Below the pieces are notes generated by a model. The model was given only the letters and a program-made list of their open reading frames with translations. It did no database searches and had not been told where the DNA came from. The position numbers and the translations under genes were made by a program. From contig NZ_JAPFQM010000001.1 of the NCBI RefSeq assembly GCF_026241205.1, forward strand, positions 558,001 through 622,000: a DNA stretch of 64,000 nucleotides, written 5' to 3'. Source of the DNA: Thermomicrobium sp. 4228-Ro. Lineage in GTDB: Bacteria; Chloroflexota; Chloroflexia; Thermomicrobiales; Thermomicrobiaceae. How positions within the stretch are numbered: position 1 is the stretch's first letter; every line of letters starts with the position of its first letter. Positions 27,646 through 36,581 of this stretch are shown here, piece after piece.

Positions 27646-27700
27646 ATGGACGAGGTGGTGAAGTTCGGTGCCAGTTTGCACGGTGTGCTTGGACGTGTCC

Positions 27701-29137
27701 ATGCGCCACTGCGCGAGTCCATCGCGAAACCGAGCGCTCGCGATCCTGTTGCTCCTCACCATCCTCGTCGCTGCTTGCAACCGGGCGACGTCGACCCCGA
27801 CACCAGCGTCACCCTTGCCGCAACCGGAAGGCTGGAGGGCTGTCGGACCGAGCGCACCGCTCGACCCCACCCAGACGACGTCCGTGCACCTGCGCCTGGA
27901 GGTCCCTCCGGAGTCGACGGTCCGGTCGGTCGAGCTGCGCCTCGTGGCGCCCAACGGCGAGCAGGTGCTCGCTGAACAGTATTCGGTGAGTCTGGGGCAA
28001 CCGCTCGACATCGAAGTGGACCTCCACGATGTGGGAACACCGGTCGCCCCGGGCACCTGGCGTGCGGAGTGGGTCGATGCCGACCAGCCCGACCGGATCC
28101 TCGCGACGGTATCCTTCCGTGTCCAACCCTCGGCGGCGATCGCCTGGCAGACCAGCGCACCGCGCCAGCCAGTCCCGGCTGGGGACTGCCGGTCGACCCG
28201 CCCGATCGTGGAACTCGGCATCCGCGCGCGACAGGCCGAGCCAGCGCAGCAGCTGCCCGTCTATGCCGTCGTCACCGCGCCGAACGGACAAGAAATCGTT
28301 CTCCGCCCCATCCAGACGACCGGTGACGACTGGGGAACGATCCGTGTTTCCCTCTGCAGCATCGTCCCCGAGACCAGCCAGGTCGGGACCTGGACCGTTC
28401 GCTGGTATCGGAGCGATGCGAGCACACAGCCGATCGCGACGGATCGCTTCCAGGTTACGCTTCCTCCGACACCGACGCCCACACCGTTGCCCACGCTCGA
28501 ATGGCGCGTTCCCACCGAGCCGGTCCAGCCGCAGGATTGCGGAGCGACCGTCGATATCCAGGTCAGGAACGCAGCCGGAACGGCCGGGCAGCGCGTCGCG
28601 GTCGTCGTGCAGGCCGTCCCGCCGGGTAAGAGTCCGGTCGACCTCGCCACGGTCGAACTCCAGGGAACGGACTGGACGACGGTCGGGCTCACCTACTGTC
28701 AGGTCGCAGGCGGCAACGCCATCGCGGGTACCTGGACAGTCCGTGCAGTCGATGCCGCCTCGCGCCAGGCCGTTCTCGGCCAAGCGACCTTCGAAGTGCG
28801 AGCGCTCCCAACACCGCCGCAGCCGGCGCCTCCGCCACCACAACCACGACCGCAGCCGCAACCACAGCCCCAACCGCCGCCACCGCCGCCATCAGCCGAT
28901 ACCGACGGCGACGGCCTGCCCGACGACGAGGAGTTGAGTTTCGGTACCGACCCGTACAACTCGGACAGCGATTCGGACGGCCTTTCGGACGGTTCCGAGG
29001 TCTATGTCTACGGAACCGACCCTCGGAAGGAAGACACCGACGTCGACGGCTACTCCGATTTCGACGAGATCCTGGTCGGCAGCGATCCGTGGGATCCCTG
29101 CAGTCCCTGGCAGTTCGCCTACAACTGCCAGCAGTAG
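27701..29137 (+). CDS. Lipoprotein with C-terminal TSP3-like calcium-binding repeats
   Basis: 478 aa. The signal peptide ends in the lipobox LTILVAAC, so the protein is probably lipid-anchored outside the cell. Three roughly 100-residue beta-type segments follow, each with a tryptophan-containing 'GTWRAEW/GTWTVRW/GTWTVRA' block and PTPTP linkers. Then comes a Pro/Gln-rich spacer (~residues 380-405) and DTDGDGLPDDEELSFGTD plus two more DxDxDGxxD units typical of thrombospondin type 3 calcium loops. ATG 27701 was preferred; a GTG at 27668 would lengthen the signal n-region. Function unknown; surface scaffold or adhesion is a guess. Confidence 0.75.
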   Translation: MRHCASPSRNRALAILLLLTILVAACNRATSTPTPASPLPQPEGWRAVGPSAPLDPTQTTSVHLRLEVPPESTVRSVELRLVAPNGEQVLAEQYSVSLGQPLDIEVDLHDVGTPVAPGTWRAEWVDADQPDRILATVSFRVQPSAAIAWQTSAPRQPVPAGDCRSTRPIVELGIRARQAEPAQQLPVYAVVTAPNGQEIVLRPIQTTGDDWGTIRVSLCSIVPETSQVGTWTVRWYRSDASTQPIATDRFQVTLPPTPTPTPLPTLEWRVPTEPVQPQDCGATVDIQVRNAAGTAGQRVAVVVQAVPPGKSPVDLATVELQGTDWTTVGLTYCQVAGGNAIAGTWTVRAVDAASRQAVLGQATFEVRALPTPPQPAPPPPQPRPQPQPQPQPPPPPPSADTDGDGLPDDEELSFGTDPYNSDSDSDGLSDGSEVYVYGTDPRKEDTDVDGYSDFDEILVGSDPWDPCSPWQFAYNCQQ

Positions 29138-30602
29138 GAGAGGAAGATTACGGTACGGACACGTTCCAGCGATCGCGGAATCGACCGTCCAGCGAGACGA
29201 TCGACCGTGTCCGATGGTTGGGCCACTCAGGTCTGCGAATGGTCCAAGTTGCAGAGAGGCACCGCGCAGCAGAACCTCGACAGTCAAACCCTCGAGCGAC
29301 GGCTTTCCGAAGGCCGCCTGTACCAGTCGCGTTCCAGCGGACGCACCGAAATCGAAGGATACCTTTCCCCCTTGCCTTCTTCGAACAACTTTCCGATGTC
29401 CTCGAGGAGGAGTTCAGGCACCAGACGGGGGCGGACGGGGACGGCATGTGCCTCTGAAGATTCTGGAAGAGGAAGGGCCACACGATGCTGCTGATCGAGC
29501 ATCAGGCGTCGTGCGCTGTTCTCTCGCAGACGAGGCAGGCTAGTCCAGGATTCGCCGGCAGGCCGGGAGTCTGGGCCAATAGTTCACAGGTACAGTGCAG
29601 GCTTCCGCCCGGTTCCCGCCGAGGAGTGATCGCACAGAGATCCCGGATGGCTCGACAGCCTTCCACCCCGGGGCCGAAGGGGAGATCGGGAACGCTCCGG
29701 CTGAGAACCAGCTCCAAAACAGGAATCCCCGCTCCCGAGGGAGTCACCAGGCAATCTCGATACTCGGTGCCGTGCCAACGCAATGGCTCCAACCATGATG
29801 CGAACCGCACGGGGCGCATCCAGCCTGCTGGGCAGATGGATCGGTTCCCTTGCCCGCGCAGGAGAAATTCTGGTAAAAGGTAGAGCCCCGTTTCGATCGA
29901 TCGGTGAGGTCTTGCGGTACAGGAGACACACGTCCGATAATGCAGGGACCCGACAGGGGACGAAGGGGGCGAGAGCCTTCCCGGCAGCCACGACTCGACC
30001 GAGTTCCAATCCCTATTCGGCGAGGGAAGGCTTTGTCACGAGGGAGACAGGGGGGATCCTCTCTCGTCTTTTCTCGAAAACGGCCGATGCGCTGTGGGGA
30101 CGGATCGGCTCGAGCACACGAGACGATACGGACGAACCACCTGAAGCAGCGGTGCAATATCCTCTGCAGCGAGGAGATGCCCTCGCGGACGAGAGCGGAG
30201 ACACTGGTTATACTCCTGGCTGGAACCATCAGGTCTCGGGTATATCCGACCATAACCATCCTCACCGAATGCGCAGGAGAATCAATGTGATTGCACCCAG
30301 TTTCTACACGAACCAGCTTCGGGCTCGGCTGACTTTGCCTGGCTCGGGTCCGCGCACCGGCTATGCAACCGGTATTCCGAATCTGGCACGCATGTGTCGG
30401 AGCGCCTGCTATCCCTGGCCCACCCCACGACGAACAGCGCGGGATCACCCGCAGGTGACAGGTGTTCGACGAGAAACTCGGCATGGAGAAGCCGCACGAG
30501 GCGGTGCTCGAAACGCTCTTCGAACCACCACTCCTCGACCTGATGACCGTCACAGAGCGTTGCGGACGATCGTATCGCTCCATTCTGAGGAGGAACGCAG
30601 CG
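29138..30602. other. 1.46-kb gene-poor region, no supportable gene
   Basis: Open frames exist on both strands, including one of 292 codons on the minus strand (29744-30622), but none has protein-like composition or a plausible ribosome site. Compositionally it seems less GC-biased than the flanks, especially 29.8-30.5 kb. Small hydrophobic or Cys-containing frames on the minus strand (29502-29819, 30282-30497) could be remnants of decayed genes. I could not assign them. No terminal inverted repeats or transposase motifs were seen. Confidence 0.4.
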
Positions 30603-32357
30603 ATGAGCGACCTGCTCTTCAAGAAGGTCGACTACACCGTCGGCAAACTGGTGGAGGACATCGCCCTCGGTGAGATCGGCCTGCCCGACATCCAGCGACC
30701 CTTCGTGTGGGACACGACCCGCGTACGCGATCTCTTCGACTCGATGTACCGCGGCTATCCGATCGGGACGCTACTCTTCTGGGAAAACGGCTATCCCGGC
30801 GAGTATCGGATCATCGGGGAGGGCAAGAAGCAAAAAGCACCTCGTCTACTCATCGTGGACGGCCAGCAACGGCTCACGGCTCTCTATGCGGTCATGAGAA
30901 ACGTACCCATCGTGGACAAGAACTTCGACCGAATCAGGTTACGCATCGCCTTTCACCCGGTAGAAGAAAAGTTCGAGGTGACCAATACGGCTATCGAACG
31001 CGATCCCACCTGGATCGCGGATATTAGCCGTTTCTGGCAACCCGATTTCGATCACTACGACTTCGTCTCTACTCTCCTCGAGCGTCTGGAGGAGCGCCGC
31101 CGACTCACTCCTGAAGAGCGCAAACGCATTCCCCAGGCTATCCAGCGACTCGTCAACCTCATCAACTACCCCATGACCGCCCTGGAAATTTCCGTCAATG
31201 CGTCGGAAGAGCAGGTCGCCGAAATCTTCGTGCGTATCAATAGTCAGGGCCGGACGCTGAACCAGGCCGATTTCATCCTCACGCTGATGTCCGTCTTCTG
31301 GGACGAAGGGCGGAAGCAGCTGGAAGAGTTTTGTCGTGAGGCCAAGCGTCCGCCGGTGGACAACCACCCTTCGCCCTATAATCCGTACTTTCACCCTCAG
31401 CCCGACCAGTTGCTCCGCGCTGACGTAGCGCTCGGGTTCCGCCGCGCGCGGCTCGAGCACGTGTATTCCATCTTGCGCGGCAAAGACTTGCAAACGGGCG
31501 AGTTCTCCCCGGAGCGCCGAGATGCCCAGTTCGCCTTGCTCGAGAAGGCACAGGCTGAGGTCCTCGACCTGCAACACTGGCACGACTTCTTCAAAGTCAT
31601 CAAGCGGGCCGGCTACATCCATCCCAGTTTGATCACGTCCGAAACGACCCTCGTCTATACCTACGCCCTCTGGCTCATCGGCAAGCGAGATTTTGCGCTC
31701 GATCCGCACACCCTGCGCAACCTCATAGCCCGCTGGTTCTTCATGAGTTCGCTCACCCGCCGGTACACTGGCTCGCCGGAAACTCGCATGGAGCAGGATT
31801 TGGCCCTGCTGCGCGGCTGTTCTCAGCCGAGCGAGTTCGCGCAGACGCTGGAGCAAGAAATGGCCGCGGTGCTCACATCGAGCTACTGGGAGATTACCCT
31901 ACCCAATGAACTGGCTACGGCCTCGGCACGGAACGTCGGACAGGCAGCCTTTTTCGCTTCCCTCTGCCTCCTCGACGCGCCGGTGCTCTATTCCCACTTA
32001 AAGGTACGCGACTTACTGGACCCTACCTCGAAGGCCCAAAAGTCGGCCCTGGAGCGACATCACCTCTTCCCGCGTAAGTATCTGGAGCGGCAAGGCGTCA
32101 CCGATCGGCGCGACATCAACCAAGTGGCCAATTACGCGCTGGTGGAGTGGCACGACAACATCGACATCAGCGCCCGGCAACCAGCCGAATACGCGCCCAA
32201 ATACGAACGTCGGTTCCCACCCGAAAAGCTGCGAGAGATGTATCGGTACCATGCCCTTCCCGAACGATGGTATGATATGGAGTATTCGACGTTCTTGGAG
32301 GAGCGCCGTCGCCTCATGGCCGCCATCATACGCGAAGGATTCGAGTCCTTGCGGTGA
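30603..32357 (+). CDS. DUF262/HNH (GmrSD-like) protein, putative antiphage nuclease
   Basis: 584 aa from the ATG at 30603 with GAGGAGG upstream. The N-terminal half is a DUF262 (ParB/sulfiredoxin-like) domain with PDIQRPFVWDTTRVRDL, YPIGTLLFW and VDGQQRLTALY, the nucleotide-binding signature. RINSQGRTLNQADF follows. The C-terminus resembles the DUF1524/His-Me nuclease: ERHHLFPRKYL, INQVANYALVEWHDN and the Asn/Ser/Pro block DISARQPAEYAPKY. Fused DUF262-DUF1524 proteins include GmrSD type IV restriction enzymes that cut modified phage DNA. It stands alone between gene-poor stretches next to a decayed aquaporin gene, and its base use looks less GC-rich than neighbours. Defence is inferred. Confidence 0.82.
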   Translation: MSDLLFKKVDYTVGKLVEDIALGEIGLPDIQRPFVWDTTRVRDLFDSMYRGYPIGTLLFWENGYPGEYRIIGEGKKQKAPRLLIVDGQQRLTALYAVMRNVPIVDKNFDRIRLRIAFHPVEEKFEVTNTAIERDPTWIADISRFWQPDFDHYDFVSTLLERLEERRRLTPEERKRIPQAIQRLVNLINYPMTALEISVNASEEQVAEIFVRINSQGRTLNQADFILTLMSVFWDEGRKQLEEFCREAKRPPVDNHPSPYNPYFHPQPDQLLRADVALGFRRARLEHVYSILRGKDLQTGEFSPERRDAQFALLEKAQAEVLDLQHWHDFFKVIKRAGYIHPSLITSETTLVYTYALWLIGKRDFALDPHTLRNLIARWFFMSSLTRRYTGSPETRMEQDLALLRGCSQPSEFAQTLEQEMAAVLTSSYWEITLPNELATASARNVGQAAFFASLCLLDAPVLYSHLKVRDLLDPTSKAQKSALERHHLFPRKYLERQGVTDRRDINQVANYALVEWHDNIDISARQPAEYAPKYERRFPPEKLREMYRYHALPERWYDMEYSTFLEERRRLMAAIIREGFESLR

Positions 32358-32725
32358 GTTGCCGGGTTCTCCCACCGAGCGCCAGACCGCGCTCCCCCGA
32401 TCCGCGCCGCTCGGAAAGCTGGCTGGACCCACCTGCTACCGGAGGACGGCCATTTCCGCGCCGGCGCGTGCTCAGCTCGGTACTCCACGCTGTCCTCCTC
32501 GAAAGGCGTCGAGAACTCGACGCGGGCGTGGATGAGCACGCACTCGGCGTCGCGGAGCACCTCCAGTATGCAACCCTGCTCTCTCAACGGCTGGAGTACG
32601 TGCCGTACCGCGCAGCTCGCCAGACGGACCCGTTTCGGAAACGCTGTCTCCGCACGAGGTTACCCGCGAGCCTTGCGATCGAACTCGCTGATCGGAAGTC
32701 TCTCGAGGACACCGGGTGCTCGAGA
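32358..32725. other. Gene-poor stretch after the DUF262 gene
   Basis: No intact gene. On the minus strand an open, protein-like stretch of about 65 codons (roughly 32460-32660) contains VRHVLQPLREQGCILEVLRD and ARVEFSTPFEEDSVEYRAEH. It begins after a stop with no start codon and could be the end of a lost gene downstream of the aquaporin pseudogene. I cannot name a family. Confidence 0.35.
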
Positions 32726-33435
32726 CTACCTGACCCGCAGGCGAGCGACGAGCCCAACGTCGGCGAGTGCTCCCACAACGGGGTCGGCCACCGGTATCCA
32801 CCCGTAGCGCCAGCCAGGCCTACCCTCCCTGGAGTCGGCAAGAGTGCTTAGGCCAGCCGGGGTGCGAGATCGCATGCCAGCTTCGAGGCGAAGCCGGTGG
32901 TACCGCCGAGCGCCAGTCCGACGACGAGCATGAGTCCGCCGACCCACCACGGTGCCGCTCCTGGCTCGACGAAACCGCGCACGAGCGCCGTCACGCAAGC
33001 TCCTAGCACCGCGGTTCCGAGAAACTCGGCGAACAGACTCGCCGGCCACTGTCGAATCGCCGGGCGCGTGCAGAACACACCTCGCTTCACCTCAGGGTCG
33101 GTCGCCTCGTCCGAGTGCAGCCAGCACGCCACCCAGACTCGTATCGCCCCAAAAAAACCGCCGGCAGACTGAGCGAGAACGTCTCCTCCCACGCGTTCTG
33201 CTGGAAGGAATCCCCACATCGCCAGTCCGACGGTCACCCCCGATTCGCGTGCTCACCACTGACTGGCCCAGTCAGACCGACCGCGAACACGACAGCCAGC
33301 ACGGAGCCGGTTGCGACCCTGAGCCACCCGCCTCGAGGACCGTGCACCACAGGCCACTGGGAAGTCACGGCTGTTCCAACAGTCAAGCGGACGAGCAGTA
33401 TCGCTCCGAAGAACTCCGCAGCGAGTTCAACGCAT
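32726..33435 (-). pseudogene. Decayed aquaporin/glycerol facilitator (MIP family)
   Basis: Pieces in all three minus frames line up end to end with a GlpF-type channel. The first is an ATG at 33435 (GAGGAGGG upstream), one base out of frame with ELAAEFFGAILLV and GPVSGEHAN. The frame then breaks exactly at the first NPA box (one base short) and resumes as VTVGLAMWG, then TDPEVKRGVFCTRPAIRQWP, AEFLGTAVLG and LALGGTTGFA. The second NPA box reads KLACDLAPRLA instead of NPARDLGPRLA. A TAA at 32848-32850 follows, then ALLPTPGR, and after another frameshift GWRYGWIPVADPVVGAL to the end at 32726. Total length fits a ~235-residue MIP protein. At least three frameshifts, one stop and a destroyed pore motif show it is dead. 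Confidence 0.85.
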
Positions 33436-33846: not shown

Positions 33847-36450
33847 CTACGAACGAGTCGAACCCGTCTTCGCTCCCAAACTCATTTCTCTTAGACCGCA
33901 ACAGTACTTGTACTTTTTCCCGCTGCCGCACGGGCACGGATCGTTCCGGCCGACCTTCTGCTTCTTCCGTGCTGGACCCGCACCGTCGCCACCGCGGTTC
34001 GGCGTCCCGACCTGCATGACCGGCCGCTGCAAGGCAGGAGCGAGCTGCACGCGGTAGATGAGCCGCGCCACGTCGTACTCGATGTTCTCCAGCAACTGCT
34101 GGAACATCCGGTAGCCCTCGCGCTTGTACACGACGAGCGGGTCGAGCTGGCCGTACGCCTGCAGCCCGACCTCGTGCCGCATGTGCTCCATCTCGGTCAG
34201 GTGCTCGATCCACAACCGGTCCATGACCTGCAGGAGCACCAGCCGCTCGATGGTCCGCATCGTGTCGGCACCGAACTCCTGCTCCCGCCGCTCGTACCGC
34301 GCCAGTGCCCGCTCCCAGAGCAACTGGACGAGTTCGTCCTCGTCTCGCTCTTCGAGGTCGCGCGGTGTCAGGCCATCCGCGTCGCCGACGATGCCGACGA
34401 AGGCCCGGAGGATCTCCTCGGGGTCGGGCTCGTCGCTCGACTCGAACGCCTGTTTGACCGCCTTCTCGAGCTGACGGCGCACCATGCCGAGCACGTGCTC
34501 GCGCATGTTCTCGCCCATGACGATCTTCCGGCGGTCAGCGTAGATCACCTCGCGGTGCTTGTTGATCACGCTGTCGTACTCGACGAGATGCTTCCGGAGG
34601 TCGAAGTTGTACCCTTCGATCTTCTTCTGCGCTTCTTCGATCATGCGACTGACCAGCGGATGCTCGATCGGATGCTCGTCGTCCATACCCAGCCGCTCGA
34701 GCAGTCCCTGGATCCGATCGGTCCCGACCCGCTTGAGGAGCTCGTCCTCGAGCGAGACGTAGAACCGGCTCGATCCCGGATCACCTTGCCGGCCCGCACG
34801 ACCACGCAGCTGGTTATCGATCCGCCGCGCCTCGTGCCGCTCCGTACCGATGACGTGCAGACCACCGAGTTCCGCGACGCCCGGTCCCAGCACGATGTCC
34901 GTTCCGCGGCCAGCCATGTTGGTGGCGATCGTTACCGCGCCGCGTTGCCCGGCTTTCGCGACGATGAGTGCCTCACGCTCGTGGTGCTTGGCGTTGAGCA
35001 CCTCGTGCGGGATCCCTTCTCGCTTGAGCAGCTGGCTCAGGTACTCGCTCTTCTCGATCGAGGTCGTCCCGACCAGCACCGGGCGGCCGAGCGCGTGCAT
35101 CTCCTTGATTTCCCGCACGACCGCACGGAACTTTCCCTCTTCCGTGCGGTAGATCACGTCCGGGTAGTCGATCCGGATCATCGGCTTGTGCGTCGGGATC
35201 ACGACGACCTCGAGGTTGTAGATGGTCTGGAATTCCTCGGCCTCGGTCGCCGCCGTACCGGTCATCCCGGCCAGTTTCTCGTACATCCGGAAGTAGTTCT
35301 GGTACGTGATCGTCGCCTGCGTGACCGTTTCCTGCCGGACGCGCAAGCCCTCCTTCGCTTCGATCGCCTGGTGCAACCCCTCGCTGTAACGGCGGCCCGG
35401 CATCATGCGCCCGGTGAACTCGTCCACGATGATGACTTCGCCGTCGCGGACGATGTAGTCCCGGTCGCGGAGATACAGTTCCTTCGCCTTCAGCGCCTGC
35501 TCGAGATAGTGGACAGCATCGGAGTAGCGGTCGTCGTAGAGGCTGTGCCCTTCTGGGATACCGAGTAGCCGCTCTACCCGATCGATCCCGGCTTCCGTCA
35601 GCGTGACCGTGCGGTGCTTCAAGTCCACCGTATAGTGCACGTCGCGACGGAGTTGCCGGGCGATCTGCGCGAACTGGTAGTAGCGGTCGACGGTGTCGCG
35701 CGCCGCCCCCGAGATGATCAACGGTGTCCGCGCTTCGTCGATCAGGATGTTGTCCACTTCGTCGACGATCGCGTAGTACAGCTCGCGCTGCACGATGTCC
35801 TCGGGCCGGTAAACCAAGTTGTCGCGCAAGTAGTCGAAACCGAACTCGTGGTTCGTCCCGTAGGTGATGTCGGCGAGGTACGCCTCGCGCCGGCTGACCG
35901 GACGCCAGTGGTTGAGGCGATCGTCCGGACTCGGATCTGGTGCCATGTAGGTCGGATCGTAAATTCCCGCGAACTCGTGCGTGATGACGCCGACCGAAAC
36001 TCCGAGGAAATGATAGATCGGCCCCATCCAGCCACCGCCGACCCGCGACAGGTAGTCGTTCGGCGTCACCAGGTGGCAACCGCGGCCCAAGAGGGCGTTC
36101 AGGAAGAGCGGCAAGGTCGCCACCAGCGTCTTTCCTTCGCCGGTCTTCATCTCGGCGATCTTGCCCTCGTGCAGCACGATACCGGCCATCAGCTGCACGT
36201 CGAAGTGCCGCATGTTGAGCGTGCGACGCGCCGCCTCGCGCACGGTCGCGAACGCCTCGACCAGGATGTCGTCGAGCGTCTCGCCGTACTCGAGCCGGGC
36301 CTTGAATTCGTCGGTCTTGGCACGCAGTTGCTCGTCGCTGAGCCGCTGGTATTCCGGTTCCAACGCGTTGATCTCGTCGACGATCCGGCGTAGGCGCTTG
36401 AGTTCTCGCTCGTTCGGGTCGCCGAAGATCTTCTTGAGGACATTTCGCAT
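33847..36450 (-). CDS. secA: Preprotein translocase ATPase SecA
   Basis: Motor ATPase that drives Sec-dependent export through SecYEG. 867 aa from the ATG at 36450; a longer reading to 36495 adds a non-conserved tail. [22 protein letters not shown] begins the protein. Walker A is [20 protein letters not shown] motif [20 protein letters not shown], and [20 protein letters not shown] with [16 protein letters not shown] close the helicase core. The C-terminus ends in a SEC-C zinc motif, [19 protein letters not shown]. Divergent from the SMR-like gene, with a 131-bp gap for both promoters. Confidence 0.97.
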
Positions 36451-36581
36451 GGACTCGTCTCCCACTGTCGGACTGCGCGGATGCGTTGACGGCACCCGTA
36501 CCCGTCAAGTCTACTGCTCGACCGAGGAGAGTGACGAACGCCTTCAGCAGCCTGGAAGCAGGAGAGGAAAGGAAGCACAGG

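Follow-up and report, generated by a model that had tools for sequence, protein, structure and literature searches.

Bacteria without a channel of the MIP family are common: they make up 2067 of the 5294 bacteria surveyed (PMC6912568). Bacterial GLPs mostly have Trp at filter position H2 (PMC6912568), and two structures among the best solved relatives of the channel described here, aquaporin-3 (9qsx) and E. coli GlpF (1fx8), carry an aromatic residue there (Trp or Phe). Bacterial pseudogenes generally contain frameshifts and nonsense codons, the gene being intact in sister lineages (Kuo and Ochman 2010, PMC2916853). A literature search found no paper joining Thermomicrobium and aquaporin.

The DNA analysed here (the window) is a stretch of 64,000 nucleotides, positions 558001-622000 of a contig from the genome of a hot-spring Thermomicrobium species (3.07 Mb, 99.89% complete), the single genome by which this species is represented, so that the lesions described below are those of one strain. 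It contains a degraded MIP gene between a lipoprotein-like gene and secA (Table 1). With a probability of about 0.96 we regard it as a unitary pseudogene: the only MIP gene of the species, which was dispensable and has been decaying under relaxed selection. Sister lineages have an intact orthologue at the same locus, and neither an intact copy nor any other MIP was found in the window genome at its 99.89% completeness. The relic does not differ qualitatively from bacterial pseudogenes in general.

Table 1. Features of the MIP locus in the window, and the intact MIP genes of the genus
Feature	Coordinates	Strand	Basis or remark
MIP (aquaglyceroporin-like) pseudogene	32726..33435	-	From relic start codon (33435) to stop of last relic frame (32728-32726); PF00230, blastn, alignment
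Relic N-terminal third, helices 1-2 to first NPA box	33234..33435	-	PF00230 10-70, E 9.5e-6
Relic middle part, helix 3 to second NPA	32848..33237	-	PF00230 74-196, E 1.1e-5
Relic C-terminal helix GWRYGWIPVADPVVGAL, third frame	32726..32815	-	Alignment with orthologue C-terminus
secA, intact, conserved upstream neighbour	33847..36495	-	98.5% aa identity to SecA of HRbin27
Lipoprotein-like gene (MG2, TSP3 repeats), other conserved neighbour	27668..29137	+	74.5% aa identity to HRbin27 neighbour; Pfam
Stretch of ~3.4 kb absent from HRbin27 locus	29138..32600 (borders approximate)		blastn of locus resumes at ~32604
GmrSD_N (DUF262) gene in this stretch	30462-32357	+	PF03235, E 2.6e-34
Intact Thermomicrobium MIPs	L036:4717-5424, L033:7230-7931, L037:9002-9700, L034:9049-9741		S/G/F/R filter

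The closest available relative is HRbin27 (G005), whose assembly is 62% complete and in which the interval from the MIP gene to secA is fully sequenced. There an uninterrupted MIP gene of 235 amino acids (minus strand) lies between secA and the lipoprotein gene; the earlier note had proposed looking for an intact copy in sister strains. The two loci are alike in the order lipoprotein gene, MIP, secA and, over 1014 bp aligned by blastn without any splicing, have 77% DNA identity (E 2e-211). The window MIP was sister to that of HRbin27 in the tree (support 100/99). HRbin27 has the intact frame, two NPA boxes and an S/G/F/R filter, whereas the relic lacks all three. In Thermomicrobium sp. SKW109 (G001), an uncultured Thermomicrobium (G004) and HRbin28 (G006) the MIP gene occupies the corresponding position and runs convergently to a gene for a PCuAC copper chaperone (Pfam). 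Since the place is the same in these three genomes and in HRbin27, this locus goes back to the ancestor of the genus, and by position the window copy is an orthologue. No MIP is present in another member of the genus (G002, 99% complete), and a search for a remnant of one found none there. In this genome the homologue of the lipoprotein-like gene (L080:5793-7303), which adjoins the empty MIP place, appears broken, with in-frame stops and two open pieces.

From the letters alone the earlier note had read a broken aquaporin gene in three frames of the minus strand, and all the motifs that it quoted were present in order. The first frame carries ELAAEFFG and GPVSGEHAN and is then broken, ending at 33234; it is out of frame with the ATG, and the break falls inside the first NPA box. 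The middle frame (33237-32851) carries VTVGLAMWG, FCTRPAIRQWP, LALGGTTGFA and KLACDLAPRLA and is closed by an in-frame TAA at 32850-32848. The GWRYGWIPVADPVVGAL piece is open from 32815 to 32729 and ends with TAG (32728-32726). All open pieces are shorter than 200 codons (193, 129 and 107 amino acids), as had been said, and the relic would escape gene callers.

Alignment with the HRbin27 gene revealed four single-base indels and one nonsense codon in the window copy. One indel immediately follows the start codon, and the others lie in the first NPA box, after the TAA and in the last codons; the first and the last of the four are additions to the earlier description. Because of the indel after the start codon, the frame of the original ATG is now closed by a stop at its third codon. 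The second NPA box reads KLA, and the filter arginine has been replaced by cysteine. This arginine is kept in 47 of 47 intact relatives, among which only two have one-residue NPA variants (NPS, NPV), and both NPA boxes are intact in all four orthologues of the genus. Altogether 34 of the 138 residues shared by all four intact copies of the genus were lost. With both boxes and the arginine gone the window copy does not qualify as a working MIP; the absence of NPA boxes is expected of a MIP pseudogene, and its membership in the family holds as that of a degraded member.

Amino acid replacements on the window branch greatly outnumbered those on the HRbin27 branch: the ratios were 38:6, 41:4 and 38:3 when polarised by SKW109, G004 and HRbin28, respectively (p 9e-7 or less). 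This asymmetry shows that the window MIP branch is under relaxed selection. The end branches of the tree measured 0.42 for the window MIP and approximately 0 for that of HRbin27. The pairwise dN/dS (0.35 between window and HRbin27, at most 0.15 between those intact pairs where it was computable, two pairs being saturated at synonymous sites) also speaks for decay. The relative-rate counts were used because the codon-position contrast (47:30 vs 10:15) did not reach significance on its own (Fisher p 0.10). Identity to HRbin27 was 80% in the coding region of the relic and 64-68% in the flanking non-coding DNA, which suggests, from sequence comparison, that the gene remained under constraint during part of the period after the split.

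Single-base indels, the typical kind of error, make up four of the five lesions, and the frame breaks might be ascribed to mistakes of sequencing or assembly in a functional gene. Any single indel could indeed be such an error; the pattern as a whole could not. The excess of replacements (38 against 6) is confined to the window branch and does not consist of indels, and for this reason sequencing error was excluded as the general cause. The loss of both NPA boxes and of the filter arginine, and the intact state of the neighbouring secA, also speak against this explanation, which we consider very improbable.

The two larger pieces are still open, and each passed the Pfam cut-off of PF00230 (25 bits) separately and without splicing (26.0 and 25.7 bits, E about 1e-5 each), their matches being collinear at adjacent positions of the profile. 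The significant similarity to MIP proteins on which the earlier reading depended was thus obtained. One could imagine that the locus still encodes a working, divergent channel, produced by programmed frameshifting or as separate fragments. With several changes of frame, a nonsense codon, a stop at the third codon of the ATG frame, lost pore motifs and relaxed constraint, this is even harder to accept than sequencing error. The third piece, when searched alone against Pfam, gave no match, and was assigned only by DNA alignment with the orthologue C-terminus. When the relic was spliced with X at the breaks, it scored 72.6 bits against PF00230 (E 5e-20). Since the frames were chosen in putting the sequence together, this E-value is inflated, and we relied on the unspliced evidence. 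Chance or low-complexity hydrophobic resemblance, which the inflated value might seem to allow, was rejected as having a negligible probability, because the unspliced pieces match independently and the blastn match to HRbin27, which no choice of frames can affect, has the E-value given above. The middle piece was 80% identical to the HRbin27 MIP over 129 residues. The earlier reading of the locus as a MIP pseudogene stands; the homology, the synteny, the lesions, the loss of constraint and the lack of another MIP in the genome are shown directly.

The unitary pseudogene most probably arose as follows. The MIP gene was inherited at the ancestral locus of the genus, between the SCO1/PCuAC copper genes, to which it is convergent, and secA. 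It then became dispensable and, with selection relaxed, is decaying through point mutations and single-base indels. The loss may have been tolerated because GlpF/GlpK is no longer a route of glycerol uptake in this lineage; this step is deduced from the window genome, in which no glycerol kinase exceeded the NCBIfam cut-off and only a distant FGGY kinase (102 bits) was detected. The intact orthologues retain the two NPA boxes and are of the aquaglyceroporin type in sequence; as judged from them, the ancestral channel most likely conducted water and/or small, neutral, glycerol-like solutes.

Of the other six genomes of the genus, four contain a glycerol kinase above this cut-off. The MIP and the kinase do not always go together: SKW109 has an intact MIP and no clear glycerol kinase, and G002 has the kinase and no MIP. 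Because of this mismatch the link between MIP and glycerol is only a suggestion. No glycerol kinase was found next to the Thermomicrobium orthologues of the relic, so they do not fit a GlpF of a glycerol operon. HRbin27 does have a GlpF-type gene (L035) about 1.8 kb upstream of a glycerol kinase; this is a separate paralogue at another locus and is absent from the window genome. The relic had been aligned with a GlpF-like channel; it is not an orthologue of the canonical GlpF of this bacterial family. The window case is ordinary gene loss. It is a clean example, in which a thermophile has lost its only aquaporin-family gene and the next species has an intact copy. It adds one further case to the known pattern of often dispensable MIP channels and leaves the general understanding unchanged.

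In the tree the intact Thermomicrobium MIPs formed a fully supported, genus-only clade with a long stem. Its neighbours are the family's GlpF-type MIPs, which have a W/G/Y/R filter. The latter, to which the HRbin27 gene near glycerol kinase belongs, are a sister lineage within the same bacterial family. The relic belongs to the Thermomicrobium-only aquaglyceroporin clade. All four intact genus MIPs have Ser at H2 (Ser-Gly-Phe-Arg), where GlpF and AQP3 have an aromatic residue; in the HMMER alignment this Ser is matched with Phe of AQP3. Aquaporin-3 and other aquaglyceroporins were the best solved relatives of the spliced relic; aquaporin-3 and GlpF ranked among the best both for it and for the intact orthologue. 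An AlphaFold2 model of the intact orthologue, made from a 4-row alignment, had a pLDDT of 42, which is too low for a fold search or for judging the six membrane helices and two half-helices of a MIP. The S/G/F/R filter might allow an unusual substrate range.

A cluster of NiFe-hydrogenase genes adjoins the MIP locus in SKW109, G002, G004 and HRbin28. It comprises six genes (Fer4_22, cNMP-binding, NAD-binding, small subunit, large subunit and HycI protease) and is situated between secA and the MIP gene or, in G002, the place from which that gene is missing (L037:10237-15393; also L080, L034 and L033). No NiFe-hydrogenase large subunit was found anywhere in the window genome, the cluster was not found in the 62% complete HRbin27 assembly with its complete MIP-secA interval, and a search for hydrogenase traces in the window and at the HRbin27 locus gave none. 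It is conceivable, if rather doubtful, that the intact orthologues constitute a genus-only channel subclass whose Ser-Gly-Phe-Arg filter is wide and whose substrate is not glycerol, encoded beside copper-chaperone and NiFe-hydrogenase genes, and that the window species lost its MIP together with the hydrogenase cluster and the glycerol kinase.

The window locus carries, beside the relic, a DUF262 insert that the HRbin27 locus lacks. This stretch of about 3.4 kb, of lower GC, separates the relic from the lipoprotein gene. No plasmid relatives of it were found. Its DUF262 gene matched the PADLOC models HEC-05 and PDC-M55C and has a 67% identical homologue in another genome (G009). The stretch is possibly a recent defence-type insertion.
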